Positions 9,122-23,519 of a stretch of DNA of 23,519 nucleotides are shown one piece after another. Position 1 is the stretch's first letter; each line of letters opens with the position of its first letter. The notes beneath the pieces are model-generated. The model had not been told where the DNA came from and did no database searches. It saw only the letters and a list, made by a program, of their open reading frames with translations. The position numbers were made by a program, and so were the translations under genes. Location of the stretch: the IMG/VR virus record IMGVR_UViG_3300006802_015691, positions 1 to 23,519 of that record. One strand, given 5' to 3'. The DNA is from a virus.

Positions 9122-9841
9122 TCAACCCTCCATGCCCATCTGCGACGGCATCTTCTCATTAATCGCCTCCGAAAAGAAATCCATCTGTGAAGTCTCATTC
9201 TCGATCCTCTCACAAGCCGCCTCGAAATAGTCCGGATCAATCTCACAAGCCGTCAAATGGTGCCCCGCATAATGGCATGCAATGGCGATACTTCCGCTTC
9301 CCATGTGCGTATCTAGGATGCGGTCTCCGGGCTTGGCATAGTTTTCCAGAACCCACCGATACAGAAACACGGGCTTTTGCGTCGGGTGAATCGCGCTGTC
9401 CACATCGGCGGTCAGAAATCCGTGATGCTGGAGAGTCACCTTTTTGAGGTTGCGGTCGTAGCTTGTCCACGCCAGTTCGCCATCGGAAAAGTTGTCCACA
9501 TGCTTGCGTTTGTCCCAGAAAATCCATCCACGGCTGTCCGGAAGCTTGCTCGCGTAGTAGTTTCCGCCCCAGACAATCTGCCGCTTGGAGACTCGCATCA
9601 GCTCATCAAAGTAAGACTGGTCGGGAGTCTTTCTGTCCCACGGTTTCGGGTTATATGTCTTTACGTTCTTACTGCAATACTTCTTCACGGCCCCCGCATT
9701 GATCCCGTAGGGCGGATCGACAATGGCCAAATCGAAGTGATTGTCGGGCGTGTCCCGCATCAAGTCCATGCAATCCGCCAACCGAAGATCCAAAAAATCG
9801 GAACTCGGATGCGCCACCGGCTTTGTAAAACTTTCCCCCAT
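9122..9841 (-). CDS. Phage DNA methyltransferase, N6-adenine/N4-cytosine type
   Basis: A 239-residue class beta amino-methyltransferase that would transfer a methyl group from SAM to adenine N6 or cytosine N4. The catalytic motif DPPY is at residues 42-45, HPTQKP at 152-157, and the SAM-binding motif DTHMGSGS (variant of FxGxG) at 177-184; this order defines the beta class. The target domain lies between them, around 60-140. No restriction partner is adjacent, so it is an orphan enzyme, probably protecting phage DNA or affecting regulation. It sits between portal and protease genes, an unusual place, and ends 16 bp before the protease start. The target sequence cannot be read from the protein. 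Confidence 0.9.
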   Translation of the reverse strand: MGESFTKPVAHPSSDFLDLRLADCMDLMRDTPDNHFDLAIVDPPYGINAGAVKKYCSKNVKTYNPKPWDRKTPDQSYFDELMRVSKRQIVWGGNYYASKLPDSRGWIFWDKRKHVDNFSDGELAWTSYDRNLKKVTLQHHGFLTADVDSAIHPTQKPVFLYRWVLENYAKPGDRILDTHMGSGSIAIACHYAGHHLTACEIDPDYFEAACERIENETSQMDFFSEAINEKMPSQMGMEG

Positions 9842-15383: not shown

Positions 15384-17825
15384 CTAAATATCCACCGTTT
15401 CAACCGCAGGAACCTGCGATTCGTTAATCTGCAAACCATAAACCCGGGTATCCCGAATTTCCGAATTCACCCATTCCCTTTTCTTGCGTTCCCGCCATTG
15501 CGGTTTCTTCGTGAAAAGCTCCCGGGCGAAAGGCCCCTTTTCCTTGTAGAATGGAACCACATCCTCACGCGCCGCCCATTCAATATACTGATCGTAAATA
15601 TCCTCCATCCAGCAGCAAATCCGCGTGACCTCGCCCTTCACCAAGTACGGGCTTTCCTCAATGATCCCCGCTTTCAGGAAGCTCTCGACCTGTGCCCGGT
15701 GCTTCTTGAAATCCTCAGTCGCTTGCAAACTCCTTTGCGTATGCTCAAACCTTCCGCGCTCCACCAACCGCTTATACCCCGCCAAGGCCCAATTCAAAAT
15801 CCCCGACATCTCCGCCTTGAACCGCGATTGATAGTCAAATTCCATCGAACCCCGCTCAATCTGCTTGTCAAAATTCACCTGGATGAACCGTCTAGCAAAC
15901 CCGTCCGAATTGTCATTCGAAAACGGCAACACGTTTGACTCCATCACGACCCGGCACTTCGGCCGAAAATCAAAACCAATCCCATATTTCACATCGACCG
16001 AAATTGGATCCCCCGAGACAATCGCCTTGATCAAGCCAATATGTTTCAAGGAATTTTGCGTCAGTTCCTTGCACAGCGCCAGGGACTTCCCGACCAATTG
16101 CGAGCGCATAAACGGATTATCTAACTCGGTCAGCTCAATCGAAACCTTGTTATCATCCCCCACCAGCCATTCCAAGACATCCACACAAGTCGATTTCCCC
16201 GTTCCCCCTTCGCCGTAGATAAAGAAGAACGAATGAAAGTTGATATGAGTGGCCAGGCAATATCCGAAAATCTCCTGAATCTGGTCCCGCGTTTCCTGAT
16301 CGTCCTGCCGATCCTCCAGCCACTTCAACCACTCCGGGCACTCCGCCCCCGGCGCGTATCGGTGGGGAATCTGCACCGTCGTAAAGTTCCCCGCCCGATG
16401 AGGCATCAGCCGCCCCTTCTCGACATCGAGCAAGCCATTCCGAAGCGCGAAATGCCCTTTCCGATGACTGTTCAAATCCTCCGGAAACATCACCCGCTCC
16501 GACATCGCCAGCCGCACCACCGACGCCACCACATTCGCGGTAATCGCCGAGCCGCCGCCCGCTTCCCGGATCCGGCGCCTCACCTGTCTTTCGATCCAGG
16601 TTTTTTCGCGGCGCTTCTCCCAAATCCCGATCTTCCCATTCCATTGCCAGAACGAATCCGCGCAATGAATCAAATTCTCAACCCGCACCAAAACCCGTGC
16701 AAGCCGGTCCTGATCAATCGCCAAACCGCCCCGCGGTCCCTCGCTCACACAAGCCGCGAACAGGTCCAACTCATCCACTCCGGCCTCTTCGGCCTTCCGG
16801 TTTAAAACCTCGTATTGCTCCTCAATCGTCACCCCAATTTCCCATTCACGCGTTAGCCAATCGGAAACATCATCCCCCGGCTTCGCCTTCTTGTCCAAAT
16901 CCTCCAGGTGAAGAATCCCCACCCGATCCGCCACCTCGAAAAGCTCACGCGCCACCACCTCGGCCCCATCAAGCCCGGGCTGGTCAAAGTCCGGAATGAT
17001 CACCACCCAGCGACCCCGAAAATACTGTGCGTATTCCTCGCGCCACTTCCCCGCCCCCATCGGCAAACACGTTGCCCGCACCTCCCGGTCATCGGTCGAT
17101 AGCGCCTCCAAATTCTCGACATCCTTCTCACCCTCCACCAAGAAAATCGGCTCTTTCTTCGGCGTCGCCAATAGTTCCGGCAATCGGTAAGGCACCACCC
17201 GCGAATCTTTCAGGCTCCAAACCCAACCCTTCCGCCGGGCTTCCTCATCGTCGCCCTTCGTCGCCGGGCGCCGTTGCCGAAACCCCTTCGGCTCCATCCG
17301 AAGAGTCTGGTGTAAAAGTTCCCCGTTCTCGTCCTGGTAGTCGTATTCCTTAACGATCTTTCCAAATCCACCCCCGCCGCCTTCGCGCTTCTTCTTCGGC
17401 ACCTCCACCCCTTTCAGCCGATCCGAAAGTTTCTTTTCCGGCTTCACCGGCCCCGATGGCTTCGCCACCTTCGCCGCCTTGCGGGTACGAGACCCGCCCG
17501 ACTTCCCGCCCTCATTCGTCTCCCACTCCACCCCCGCGAGCTCACAATAAAGCCGCATCGCCTCTTTCGTCGAAAGCCCCCGCGCCGCCTCAATCAGCTT
17601 GATTTCATCGCCCTTCTCATCGGTCCCGTGATCCTTCCAAAAACCAACCCCGTCCCGCGTAAACACCGAGAACGAAGGCGAATTGTCCTCCCGCAAAGGC
17701 GAGCAAATCTTAGCCTCACCACCCCCGCCGCCCCAGGCCTGCACCTTATCCGCCCCCCGCAGCCCCAAGGCCCCAAAGAGTTCCCAAATCGGCAACCGTC
17801 TCCGGCAATCGTCCATATCAGCCAT
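15384..17825 (-). CDS. Primase-helicase (TOPRIM plus SF3/D5-type helicase)
   Basis: An 813-residue replication enzyme combining RNA primer synthesis and DNA unwinding. Residues about 40-100 are a CHC2-like primase region with CSPLREDNSPSFSVF and DHGTDEKGDEIKLIE, but most zinc ligands of the classical finger are absent. TOPRIM motifs are VEGEKD near 228 and PDFDQPG near 276. After a linker, a D5-N-like region leads to the SF3 ATPase with P-loop GEGGTGKST near 536-544, the LCKEL segment near 582 and a sensor region VMESNVLPF. The C-terminus is basic and less conserved. It overlaps the acetyltransferase stop as ATGA and abuts the terminase genes. Confidence 0.9.
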   Translation of the reverse strand: MADMDDCRRRLPIWELFGALGLRGADKVQAWGGGGGEAKICSPLREDNSPSFSVFTRDGVGFWKDHGTDEKGDEIKLIEAARGLSTKEAMRLYCELAGVEWETNEGGKSGGSRTRKAAKVAKPSGPVKPEKKLSDRLKGVEVPKKKREGGGGGFGKIVKEYDYQDENGELLHQTLRMEPKGFRQRRPATKGDDEEARRKGWVWSLKDSRVVPYRLPELLATPKKEPIFLVEGEKDVENLEALSTDDREVRATCLPMGAGKWREEYAQYFRGRWVVIIPDFDQPGLDGAEVVARELFEVADRVGILHLEDLDKKAKPGDDVSDWLTREWEIGVTIEEQYEVLNRKAEEAGVDELDLFAACVSEGPRGGLAIDQDRLARVLVRVENLIHCADSFWQWNGKIGIWEKRREKTWIERQVRRRIREAGGGSAITANVVASVVRLAMSERVMFPEDLNSHRKGHFALRNGLLDVEKGRLMPHRAGNFTTVQIPHRYAPGAECPEWLKWLEDRQDDQETRDQIQEIFGYCLATHINFHSFFFIYGEGGTGKSTCVDVLEWLVGDDNKVSIELTELDNPFMRSQLVGKSLALCKELTQNSLKHIGLIKAIVSGDPISVDVKYGIGFDFRPKCRVVMESNVLPFSNDNSDGFARRFIQVNFDKQIERGSMEFDYQSRFKAEMSGILNWALAGYKRLVERGRFEHTQRSLQATEDFKKHRAQVESFLKAGIIEESPYLVKGEVTRICCWMEDIYDQYIEWAAREDVVPFYKEKGPFARELFTKKPQWRERKKREWVNSEIRDTRVYGLQINESQVPAVETVDI

Positions 17826-19688: not shown

Positions 19689-20474
19689 TTAAGCCACCTC
19701 CGGAAATTTTTCCGAACCCTTACCAAGCCCCGACCACCTTAAAATTTTACAAGCCTTCCCCTCTCTTCGGAAATTCCAGGCTTTAATCAACAATGCAAAA
19801 ACCTCGATCCTGTTGAGTTTTTTCGCCGCAAAGCGATTCACCATAAGCCGCTCCCGCAAAATATAAACCGCATCAGACGAATCCAAACCCACCCCGGAAA
19901 TCAAATCCCTGACAAACATTTCCGCCGCCTCCGGGTCTTTTTCCGCAAACAAATAATGAGCAGCCCCAAGCACCGAAGGAGCCACCAGATTATGAGTGGC
20001 ATGGCAAAGCGGGAAAGAATCCCGAGCATCAGGATACTTTCCCAGCAACTCCAAAACCTCTGTGTTGCGGTAACCAATTTTTGTTAAAACCTTTCCCGTA
20101 TGATAGCGCTCGAGAAGCATTAACGAACTAGCGAGAGGGCTAGCGTATTTTTCACCAACCGCCCCCAGGGTATCCGAAGCACTACGACGGGAGCCCACAT
20201 CTTTAGTTGGAAACAATCCATCCTCCAAATCCTCAACCACTAGAGTTTCCACAGCAACGCCCGCCGCAACAATCGCGCTCAACCGATGCTGCCCATCAAT
20301 CAAACCAAATTCATCAAAGCAAATCGTGTCGCCATTCAACCGCCAACGCCCCTCCAAAATCTCTTTTTTTAGATGCTCAGCTTCCCTGGGCTTAAACTTT
20401 CGATTGCCAGCATTTCGCTTCAGCATTTCCTTAGCTATCGCCGGAGTGATTTTCATTTTTTGCACTTTCATCAT
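19689..20474 (-). CDS. DGQHR-type ParB-fold protein
   Basis: A 261-residue protein with the N-terminal motif set KFKPREAEHLKKEILEGRWRLNGDTICFDEFGLIDGQHRLSAI; the DGQHRL signature is at residues 60-65. This signature marks a ParB/sulfiredoxin-like nucleotide-binding fold found in phage proteins and distantly in DndB. The remainder is helical, with KKLNRIEVFALLIKAWNFRREGK near the end. The function in phage is not established; DNA-binding or regulatory roles are plausible. It overlaps the upstream stop by ATGA and lies next to a second ParB-fold gene, 24 bp downstream. Confidence 0.7.
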   Translation of the reverse strand: MMKVQKMKITPAIAKEMLKRNAGNRKFKPREAEHLKKEILEGRWRLNGDTICFDEFGLIDGQHRLSAIVAAGVAVETLVVEDLEDGLFPTKDVGSRRSASDTLGAVGEKYASPLASSLMLLERYHTGKVLTKIGYRNTEVLELLGKYPDARDSFPLCHATHNLVAPSVLGAAHYLFAEKDPEAAEMFVRDLISGVGLDSSDAVYILRERLMVNRFAAKKLNRIEVFALLIKAWNFRREGKACKILRWSGLGKGSEKFPEVA

Positions 20475-21145: not shown

Positions 21146-21528
21146 GCCTGCATCCTTTTTTTCGCCGTGACGTAAACCAGCCGCACTTCATCCGCCCGCA
21201 GCCCGTCCTTCCGCATCGCCTTCTCCACCTGACCCCGGGCCCAATAGACCGTCGCATAGTGGCGCCCCCCATAAAGATCCCCCACCGCTGCCGCCGACAG
21301 GAGCCCGTATTGGTAAGTCAAAGCCATTGCCACCTGCCTGGGCCATGCAATCCGCCCCAACCGCCGGGAACCGTCCAGCTCATCGGAAGTCACCTGGTAA
21401 AGTTCCTCCACCACTTCCCGAACCACTTCCTCCCAAGGCCCGGAACCCGGCGCCCGGAGCTTGGTATCATTCAAAGCTTGCAGACTGGTCCCAGTCCGCT
21501 TAAAGCTGCTAGAATAGTAAACTTTCAT
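21142..21528 (-). CDS. Stand-alone DnaA domain IV-like protein
   Basis: A 128-residue protein whose residues about 46-105 align well with the DNA-binding domain IV of DnaA: SRRLGRIAWPRQVAMALTYQ corresponds to the RPRQMAM helix region, and LYGGRHYATVYWA to the signature GGRDHTTVLHA. Domains I-III, including the AAA+ ATPase, are absent, so this is a DNA binder only. At the base-contacting signature, H90, Y91 and A92 replace Asp, His and Thr, while T93 is kept, predicting a changed or relaxed box. The ATG at 21528 overlaps the upstream stop as ATGA. Candidate targets are the DnaA-box-like repeats at 22886-23161. It may act as initiator, recruiter or competitor of host DnaA. Confidence 0.8.
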   Translation of the reverse strand: MKVYYSSSFKRTGTSLQALNDTKLRAPGSGPWEEVVREVVEELYQVTSDELDGSRRLGRIAWPRQVAMALTYQYGLLSAAAVGDLYGGRHYATVYWARGQVEKAMRKDGLRADEVRLVYVTAKKRMQA

Positions 21529-21788
21529 TTCGCCGCCCTCCATTTCTTAAAGCTTCCAGCCTCGATCAAAACCCGCCCCGTTCCCGGCACCCGCTTAAAC
21601 GTCCCGGCCCCAACCATGCGCCGAACCTGCGTATCGGAAATTTTCCCCCGCCGGGCGCACTCCTCAACCGTCAAAGGATCCTCTGACTCATCCGCCGCCA
21701 CCAGCAAACCTTCCTTCTTGGCCGCCTCAATAATCGCCGGCACCAACAAAGCCACCGCCTCTTCGCCTAACTCAACCGCAAGTCTCAT
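21525..21788 (-). CDS. Excisionase/MerR-like HTH protein
   Basis: An 87-residue protein. The N-terminal helix (LVPAIIEAAKKEGLLVA) is followed by a winged-helix HTH unit: LTVEECARRGKISDTQVRRMVGAGTFKRVPGTGRVLIEAGSFKKW (about 39-83). This pattern is shared by excisionases and small phage regulators. With no integrase in the window, a control role in the early operon is as likely as excision. It starts on the stop of the upstream gene (TAATG) and overlaps the DnaA-like gene. Confidence 0.7.
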   Translation of the reverse strand: MRLAVELGEEAVALLVPAIIEAAKKEGLLVAADESEDPLTVEECARRGKISDTQVRRMVGAGTFKRVPGTGRVLIEAGSFKKWRAAK

Positions 21789-21961
21789 TATGCTGCCTCC
21801 CTTTCGAGCTTCTCAATCTCGGCCTGAATGGCCACCTCACGCTCCGCAATCACCAAAGCCCGCAAAGCGTCATCCTTGGCCCGCCGCCGAAGCATCTGAA
21901 GGCTTTCCAACTCCAACCGGAGAACCTCCCTCAAAATCGTTTCCTTAACCGTTGTTTTCAT
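21788..21961 (-). CDS. Small coiled-coil leader protein of the early operon
   Basis: A 57-residue protein, MKTTVKETILREVLRLELES and onward to KLEREAA. It is rich in Leu, Glu and Arg with heptad spacing, so it is probably a single helix or coiled coil. It is the first gene of the leftward operon, behind the control region at 21962-22043. Its stop overlaps the next start as TAATG, which supports real translation. Function unknown; it could be an anti-repressor or an assembly partner of the following HTH protein, but this is a guess. Confidence 0.6.
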   Translation of the reverse strand: MKTTVKETILREVLRLELESLQMLRRRAKDDALRALVIAEREVAIQAEIEKLEREAA

Positions 21962-22043
21962 TTACGAAACATTTTCTAGAATAGAAATAAACGGTCCGCA
22001 AGAGAAATGTTGCTTTTTTTTAAATTGTTGTCAAAATAGAAAC
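21962..22043. promoter_or_regulatory. Divergent control region between repressor and early operon
   Basis: This AT-rich 82-bp gap separates divergent genes. On the minus strand TTGACA (22034-22029) is followed after 17 nt by AACATT (22011-22006), a plausible leftward promoter. The octamer AATAGAAA occurs twice (21980-21987 and 22035-22042). The second copy overlaps the TTGACA box and ends against the repressor start at 22044, so these are candidate operators. A rightward promoter is less clear, and the repressor message may have a very short leader. Confidence 0.55.
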
Positions 22044-22460
22044 ATGAGCCACGTCACGATAACCCTAGAAACCATCATTGAACGTTCTTTCGATGGAAAA
22101 CAAAGAGCCCTAGCAACCGCCTCCGGAATCACTCCCGGCCAGGTTTCCAAATTCCTGAAAGGCACCCAGCCCCTCACGCATTCAACCCTCGAAACTCTTT
22201 GCAATCATCTCGACAAAAAAGACTGCCAGGCCTTGTGCCTCGCCGCAGCCCGCGACCTTCTCCCCCCGGACATTGCAGAAGCGATCACCCTTGAAACGCC
22301 CACCCAAACCCTGCACGAGCCAACCACATTTAACGACCTTGACCCCAAGACCGAGGAAATTTTCGCCAAGCTCCGCGCCCTCGTCCGCAAAGATCCCGAA
22401 ACCCGCGACTGGATCCACCACCTCGCCACCTGGATCTTTCCAAACTCAAACCAAGACTAA
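22044..22460 (+). CDS. Phage repressor-like HTH protein
   Basis: A 138-residue protein transcribed away from the early operon, the place of a lysogeny repressor. Residues about 5-60 form an XRE-like HTH: RSFDGKQRALATASGITPGQVSKFLKGTQPLTHSTLETLCNHL. A helical C-terminal part (DLDPKTEEIFAKLRALVRKDPETRDWIHHLATWIF) may mediate oligomerisation. There is no LexA-like Ser/Lys peptidase, so induction by RecA cleavage is not expected. Codons end mostly in C, matching the C-rich plus strand. The partner gene at 22464 starts 3 bp later. Confidence 0.75.
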   Translation: MSHVTITLETIIERSFDGKQRALATASGITPGQVSKFLKGTQPLTHSTLETLCNHLDKKDCQALCLAAARDLLPPDIAEAITLETPTQTLHEPTTFNDLDPKTEEIFAKLRALVRKDPETRDWIHHLATWIFPNSNQD

Positions 22461-22852: not shown

Positions 22853-22879
22853 AAGCTCGCCGATCACGCGGGCTTTTTT
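22853..22879 (+). terminator. Intrinsic terminator of the rightward operon
   Basis: AAGCTCGC (22853-22860) pairs with GCGGGCTT (22868-22875), including one G-T wobble, across a 7-nt loop. It is followed by a six-T run, starting 5 bp behind the stop of the partner gene. Confidence 0.8.
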
Positions 22880-23213
22880 GTGGATTTGTCCACCGTCCAC
22901 CCGCATTTCCAAAACCGGTTCCTTATTGGCTAGAAACGCATATTTTTGCGCTCTATCTTTACAGTATAGGGTTTACCTAAAACCCTTGGTTGAGTGGACA
23001 AGTAGTAAGCAAGTAGCTAAACAACAACACTTTAGAACGTCCAACGAAGGATTTTAACACAGTGGACAAAAAACACGGTGGATGGACAAATCACCAAAAC
23101 CCGTGTTCGATTGAGCACCCGCATTTGTCCAACGTGTCGAATTTGTCCACCCATTGTCCACCCAACCTTAGCGAGTAGTAGCCACTCGCGCGGATATTGG
23201 CTAAAGTCCCCCC
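22880..23213. repeat. Non-coding region with DnaA-box-like repeats (possible origin)
   Basis: No gene fits here. The heptamer TTGTCCA occurs seven times: plus orientation at 22886, 23125, 23143 and 23154; minus orientation at 22994-23001, 23062-23069 and 23083-23089. Most copies extend to TTGTCCAC plus C or T. TTGTCCACA is the DnaA box of some high-GC bacteria and TTATCCACA that of E. coli. The blocks 23062-23091 and 23123-23150 form an imperfect inverted repeat. A stretch at 22920-22985 is richer in A and T, as an unwinding element would be. This could be an origin, or binding sites for the phage DnaA-like or ParB-type protein. Confidence 0.6.
23171..23189. repeat. Hairpin upstream of the Pmp3-like gene
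   Basis: GCGAGT and ACTCGC pair across a 7-nt loop, 25 bp before the start of the Pmp3-like gene. No T run follows, so it is more likely a leader structure or operator than a terminator. Confidence 0.4.
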
Positions 23214-23444
23214 ATGAGATACTTCATCGCCCTCATCCTCCCGCCGCTCGCCGTCCTCCTCACCGGCCGCCTGGTCCAGCTCCTCCTCAACATCCTCCTG
23301 TGCTTTCTCTTCTGGATCCCCGGTATCGTCCACGCCCTCCTCATCGTCTCTGACTCGAAGGCCAAAGCCCGGAACGCCGCCCAACTCAAACAGCTCCGAA
23401 AGCTCCACAAGAAAGGGATTTCCCCACCCCCGATCCCCAAATAA
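23214..23444 (+). CDS. Pmp3/YqaE-family small membrane protein
   Basis: A 76-residue protein with two hydrophobic segments, residues about 3-16 and 20-46. The motif LPPLAVLLTGRL followed by LLNILLCFLFWIPGIVHALLIV is the hallmark of the Pmp3/UPF0057 family of stress-linked plasma membrane proteins. The C-terminal tail is basic and Pro-rich (KGISPPPIPK). It is not a usual phage gene, so it may be host DNA that marks the right edge of the prophage, or a cargo gene. Codons are strongly C-ending. Confidence 0.85.
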   Translation: MRYFIALILPPLAVLLTGRLVQLLLNILLCFLFWIPGIVHALLIVSDSKAKARNAAQLKQLRKLHKKGISPPPIPK

Positions 23445-23519
23445 TCGCCATATCTAACCACAGAAACCAGAAAACCAAAATCCCCCCCCCAAATCCGAAT
23501 CCATAATGCGGACGCACAC
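23445..23519. other. Right-end non-coding tail of the window
   Basis: No gene is seen. It contains a run of nine Cs (23482-23490) in an otherwise A-rich stretch. The tract lies outside any reading frame I can support. Confidence 0.5.

Follow-up and report, generated by a model that had tools for sequence, protein, structure and literature searches.

In P4, a winged-helix domain of the alpha protein binds the origin repeats, after which the protein unwinds the DNA and primes it (PMC4234260). In SCCmec elements, the C-terminal domain of Cch2 binds direct repeats downstream of its own gene, and SaPI Rep does likewise (PMC7581432). The P4 record annotates the type-1 repeats of ori and crr, which read TGTTCACC and lie in mixed orientation. 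Replication origins of Verrucomicrobiales phages are, to our knowledge, little known, and here we describe a candidate origin and a candidate initiator for a phage lineage linked to this order. The locus is a cluster of short boxes around an AT-rich stretch, most likely an origin of the iteron type and thus a known kind of origin, found here in a new phage lineage. Judging from sequence and analogy, we give a probability of about 0.64 to the reading that the cluster is the origin of a temperate phage, at which a primase-helicase of the D5/P4-alpha type would bind to the boxes before melting the AT-rich stretch and priming. The unusual conserved component beside this known kind of origin is a standalone DnaA domain IV, and its pairing with the D5 helicase is the most interesting part of the system.

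The window, meaning the whole stretch of DNA that was analyzed, is a virus contig of 23,519 bases, and the record comes without host contigs. It encodes a tape measure protein, capsid protease, portal and terminase, together with a D5_N/DUF5906 primase-helicase, a ParB-like protein and the standalone DnaA domain IV, as well as an excisionase-like HTH protein and, divergent from it, a Cro/CI-like repressor; a Pmp3-like membrane protein is encoded at the right end (Table 1). The gene order is common to the window and its relatives L005, L006, L007, L008, and L009. The phage is probably temperate, since the contig of L009 carries at its other end a tyrosine-recombinase-like frame, as read from its sequence. 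Another relative, L135, sits in a metagenome-assembled genome of Verrucomicrobiales (terminase 63% identical, by terminase profile search), so that the host is probably a member of Verrucomicrobiales and the phage probably infects Verrucomicrobia. The terminase profile alone reached a host genome; no relative was found by the primase profile in the genome scan or by the p261 protein query in the scan of viral contigs. Three further genes are noted in passing. The ParB-like protein of this temperate phage (18303-19664, minus strand) stands in a window in which no ParA was seen; a phrog_5931 protein (19689-20474, minus strand) has no known function and was not found in L005 to L009; and the Pmp3-family small membrane protein (23214-23444, plus strand) lies at the phage end, where L007 has a different small frame.

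Table 1. Positions of the features discussed, in window coordinates
Feature	Position	Strand	Basis or proposed role
Primase-helicase (CHC2 Zn ribbon weak, D5_N, DUF5906)	15384..17825	-	Proposed box-binding initiator
Standalone DnaA domain IV (Bac_DnaA_C), 133 aa	21142..21543	-	Accessory or rival box-binder
HTH_17 excisionase-like gene	21525..21788	-	Divergent from repressor
HTH repressor-like gene, Cro/CI-type	22044..22460	+	Adjoins candidate origin; kept in L005, L008, L009
Terminator-like hairpin	22853..22875	+	Consensus match only; would close repressor operon ahead of box 1
Box 1, TTGTCCACC	22886..22894	+	Motif count
Weaker box core, CC-GTCCA-CC	22895..22899	+	GTCCA core search
AT-rich stretch, candidate DNA-unwinding element	22911..23060		Between box groups, overlaps box 2
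Box 2, TTGTCCACT	22993..23001	-	GTCCA core kept in register by every relative (alignment column 605)
Weaker box core, AC-GTCCA-AC	23039..23043	+	GTCCA core search
Box 3, TTGTCCACT	23061..23069	-	Motif count
Box 4, TTGTCCATC	23081..23089	-	Motif count
Box 5, TTGTCCAAC	23125..23133	+	Motif count
Box 6, TTGTCCACC	23143..23151	+	Motif count
Box 7, TTGTCCACC	23154..23162	+	Motif count
End of phage form, probable att site	23470..23519		Related contigs stop at homologous point

We count seven copies of TTGTCCA in 275 bp (22886-23160), starting at 22886 (+), 22995 (-), 23063 (-), 23083 (-), 23125 (+), 23143 (+), and 23154 (+). This agrees with the initial annotation, which had reported seven copies within 276 bp, their orientation as plus, three minus and three plus, and a distance of 11 bp between the final two. 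The motif count across the window, a check named beforehand, upholds the excess in the cluster (7 copies against 4 elsewhere) and corrects the outside copies from about three to four (9463, 9492, 16891, and 20920). By dinucleotide shuffles, 2.2 copies are expected per whole window, and 400 window simulations under an order-2 Markov model never placed more than 2 copies in a 276-bp stretch. When any heptamer was allowed, the largest cluster in 40 simulations held 4 copies versus the 7 observed, and local order-1 simulations of the 366-bp region reached a maximum of 3 copies in 20,000. The full box is asymmetric, TTGTCCA(C/A)(C/T), and occurs as TTGTCCACC (three times), TTGTCCACT (twice), TTGTCCAAC (once), and TTGTCCATC (once). 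Boxes fall into two groups, one made of box 1 and the weak copy at 22895, the other of boxes 2 to 7 (22995-23160). The count of terminator-like sites in the window, to which the hairpin ahead of box 1 belongs, is no higher than chance. Elsewhere, three YTGTCCAC copies lie in 105 bp (9396-9500) inside a DNA-methylase-like frame (9122-9841, minus strand); they may form a second box group resembling P4 crr, or be due to chance.

The AT-richer stretch that had been noticed alongside the boxes has a GC content of 38.7%, against 56.1% for the window, and the equivalent stretches of L009, L008, and L007 have 27.7%, 35.5%, and 44%, respectively. The most AT-rich stretch of the window is not the cluster's; it lies at 21931-22011 (27.5% GC), where the xis-like and repressor-like genes diverge, and holds no boxes. 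The large inverted repeat of the initial annotation is present, its arms sharing GTGGACAAA..ACACG..TGGACAAAT (the 23061-side arm versus the reverse complement of the 23130-side arm), but it consists mostly of boxes, aligns only with gaps (box spacing, 20 versus 18 bp), and is absent from the relatives. It probably reflects the multiplicity of boxes, and a cruciform reading was dropped because the repeat is not conserved.

What is conserved is the arrangement of boxes. In L005, L009, L008, and L007, GTCCA(A/C)C boxes in mixed orientation surround an AT-rich stretch at the same place, and the consensus over four phages reads YYGTCCAMC. Two GTCCA cores are in register in 4/4 distinct aligned rows and two more in 3/4. 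Among gap-free columns, 25/53 are invariant in boxes and 45/204 outside, which is a mild test because a box column was defined from the same rows, as one lying within a box in any row. In addition, the contig of L135 ends inside the region with three box-like copies and the AT-rich stretch, and a partial box cluster is found at the contig end of L137/L138 in a Verrucomicrobiales genome. The contigs of L005, L007, L008, and L009 all stop within approximately 10 bp of one homologous point, which is GTGGGTCTCGCA-like and is probably the attachment site. Position, together with the mixed boxes and AT-rich core of the relatives, thus lends support to the suggestion, made at the outset, of an origin or iteron array, as do the linked replication module and the presence in unrelated viruses of these boxes next to D5-type helicase genes.

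The primase-helicase is encoded within the same element as the cluster and matches PDB 7ola (entry name “DNA primase”) in sequence. In its C-terminal region it can be aligned with other D5 primases (hhalign 92%, E 5e-7), including the primase of L134, whose C terminus is Pox_D5/RFX-like by Pfam; a comparison with the C-terminal region of P4 alpha gave no direct match. The AlphaFold model of the primase (pLDDT 41) was too poor to use. The cluster is not directly downstream of the primase gene and lies approximately 5 kb from it, beyond the repressor, and because of this distance we do not claim membership in the SaPI type. We infer that the primase-helicase binds the boxes and that the segment acts as an origin.

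The primase (25% identity) is all that L134 has in common with the window; L134 carries nine GTCCAC boxes just 3' of its primase gene, with no DnaA_C in the 62-kb contig. Viral contigs were also scanned blind for close pairs of TTTGTCCA, then of TTGTCCACC/TGTCCACC, and screened for D5 helicases, with two scans for reversed motifs as controls. We observe seven TGTCCACC boxes in L045, five in L071, and five TTTGTCCA boxes in L069, each set starting 16 to 70 bp downstream of a DUF5906 helicase gene. The enrichment downstream of helicases consists of these three loci; in the controls, 0/119 and 0/127 loci had such placement. DnaA_C was not found in the records of L045, L071, and L069, while L002 and L003 have DnaA_C, lack DUF5906, and show no box cluster. 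From this contrast, in a small sample, the boxes appear to follow the D5 helicase and not DnaA domain IV. The motif also occurs without D5 helicases and so is not specific to them: TTGTCCAC clusters are present in L099, L072, L054, and L041, which lack both DUF5906 and DnaA_C. In L099 (9634-9950), fifteen GTCCA boxes, twelve of them TTGTCCA, lie directly 3' of an AAA_25 helicase-like gene, and other initiators may therefore read the same motif. Among twelve annotated phages whose D5 primases are distant, heptamer counting revealed no iteron in common; several of the heptamer clusters there are coding repeats, and AcaML1 has a small GTTTCCACC cluster.

That the cluster is an origin whose boxes are instead read by the phage DnaA domain IV protein or by host DnaA, which would recruit the helicase-primase, seems unlikely to us, even though Pfam (1.7e-12), the sequence match to Escherichia coli PDB 1j1v (2e-7), and the predicted fold (TM 0.90, rmsd 1.3 A to 1j1v) all identify the protein as a DnaA domain IV, which is kept next to the replication genes in each relative whose sequence extends over this locus. 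No PHROG family matches it. Its base-reading signature GGRDHTTV is altered to GGRHYATV in the window and to GGRHYSWV or GRTHVTA in relatives, and the change from DHTT to HYAT/HYSW could suit an altered box end; the minor-groove arginine and the RQ pair, which we take to be the equivalents of DnaA Arg399 and Arg407-Gln408, are retained. DnaA boxes are of the TTATCCACA type, or TTGTCCACA in actinobacteria. Neither occurs in exact form inside the cluster, where every box differs at its 3' end, which is C or T (TTGTCCACC/T, AAC, ATC) and never the CACA of a DnaA box. The initial annotation had called the repeats DnaA-box-like, and the resemblance of TTGTCCAC to a DnaA box holds, but the box end, the helicase association, and the single-position difference from the annotated P4 origin repeat make the label doubtful. 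Against a DnaA-read origin, moreover, stand the boxes that accompany D5 helicases without DnaA_C in L134, L069, L045, and L071, the converse case of L002 and L003, and the lack in the domain IV protein of the AAA+ domain needed for DNA melting; we found no full-length AAA+ DnaA in the window. A match to host DnaA is unsupported: 38 genomes of the host order contain essentially no tandem TTATCCAC or TTGTCCACA pairs, counts of tandem-box patterns in them gave no clear host box, and the host dnaA region of G008 has no DnaA-box cluster. Host DnaA could still act on the cluster. The phage domain IV may be a co-binder, a regulator, or an agent against host DnaA. It is rather doubtful that the D5-type primase-helicase reads the origin jointly with a detached DnaA domain IV that has rebuilt base-reading residues; if true, the phage captured the DNA-binding module of DnaA as a factor for origin specificity or licensing.

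Readings other than an origin fare worse. The cluster lies just 3' of the repressor-like operon and ahead of the small membrane-protein gene, with several HTH proteins encoded nearby, so its boxes might be operators of phage regulators (repressor, HTH, p224 protein) for the rightward gene and the repressor operon. We consider this very unlikely: no box occurs in the divergent control region (21789-22043), the expected site of the repressor and early promoters, the boxes are kept though the right-hand gene differs (L007) or was not found (L005, L008, and L009), and nine boxes in approximately 275 bp around an AT-rich core would be unusual for an operator. It is highly improbable that the boxes are arm-type sites for integrase/excisionase, as the probable attachment end some 360 bp away might suggest, or a centromere for the ParB-like protein (ParB_N 1.1e-24). 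The integrase-side end sequence of the relative G001 has no TTGTCCA box; ParB sites are usually palindromes, and the boxes are not; the window shows no ParA gene; and the same boxes adjoin D5 helicase genes in unrelated viruses.

On the preferred reading of an origin served by the primase-helicase, several units of this protein would bind the boxes through the C-terminal domain, assemble there and melt the AT-rich stretch, after which the protein would load itself and prime replication. The standalone DnaA domain IV would, at a guess, be an accessory that modulates initiation here or acts on host DnaA sites. Comparison supports the origin reading well and the DnaA-box label less so. We suggest as a rule of thumb that TGTCCAC-type repeats around an AT-rich stretch mark the origins of many viruses with D5 helicases, and that such repeats can pass wrongly for DnaA boxes. 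Given the conserved pairing of DnaA domain IV with D5, one may ask why a phage that has an initiator of its own would keep the DNA-binding module of DnaA.

Among known systems, bacterial oriC resembles the locus in its DnaA-box-like TTGTCCAC motif, in the AT-rich element alongside, and in that a DnaA domain IV is encoded; it differs in that TTATCCACA ends in CACA, as no window box does, that the window has no AAA+ DnaA, and that the box clusters of other viruses come without a DnaA-like protein. SaPI5 Rep and SCCmec Cch2 share with the window a helicase of the D5_N class and multiple short repeats as the putative origin, a likeness that extends to the 7ola match of the window primase. However, their iterons are downstream of the helicase gene, unlike the distant window repeats, and the Cch2 repeat AAGTG differs from the window box. 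P4 is a satellite, whereas the window phage has its own head and tail genes. P4 also lacks a DnaA domain IV, and next to its primase gene lies a second repeat region that is essential, crr, of which no counterpart is seen in the window, and the C-terminal domains of the two primases have no detectable sequence likeness. Yet P4 shares with the window a TOPRIM-type primase fused to a helicase, an origin that is separated from the primase gene and lies past the repressor/xis genes, ori repeats in both orientations, and a repeat core (TGTTCACC in P4, TGTCCACC in the window) that differs at one position.
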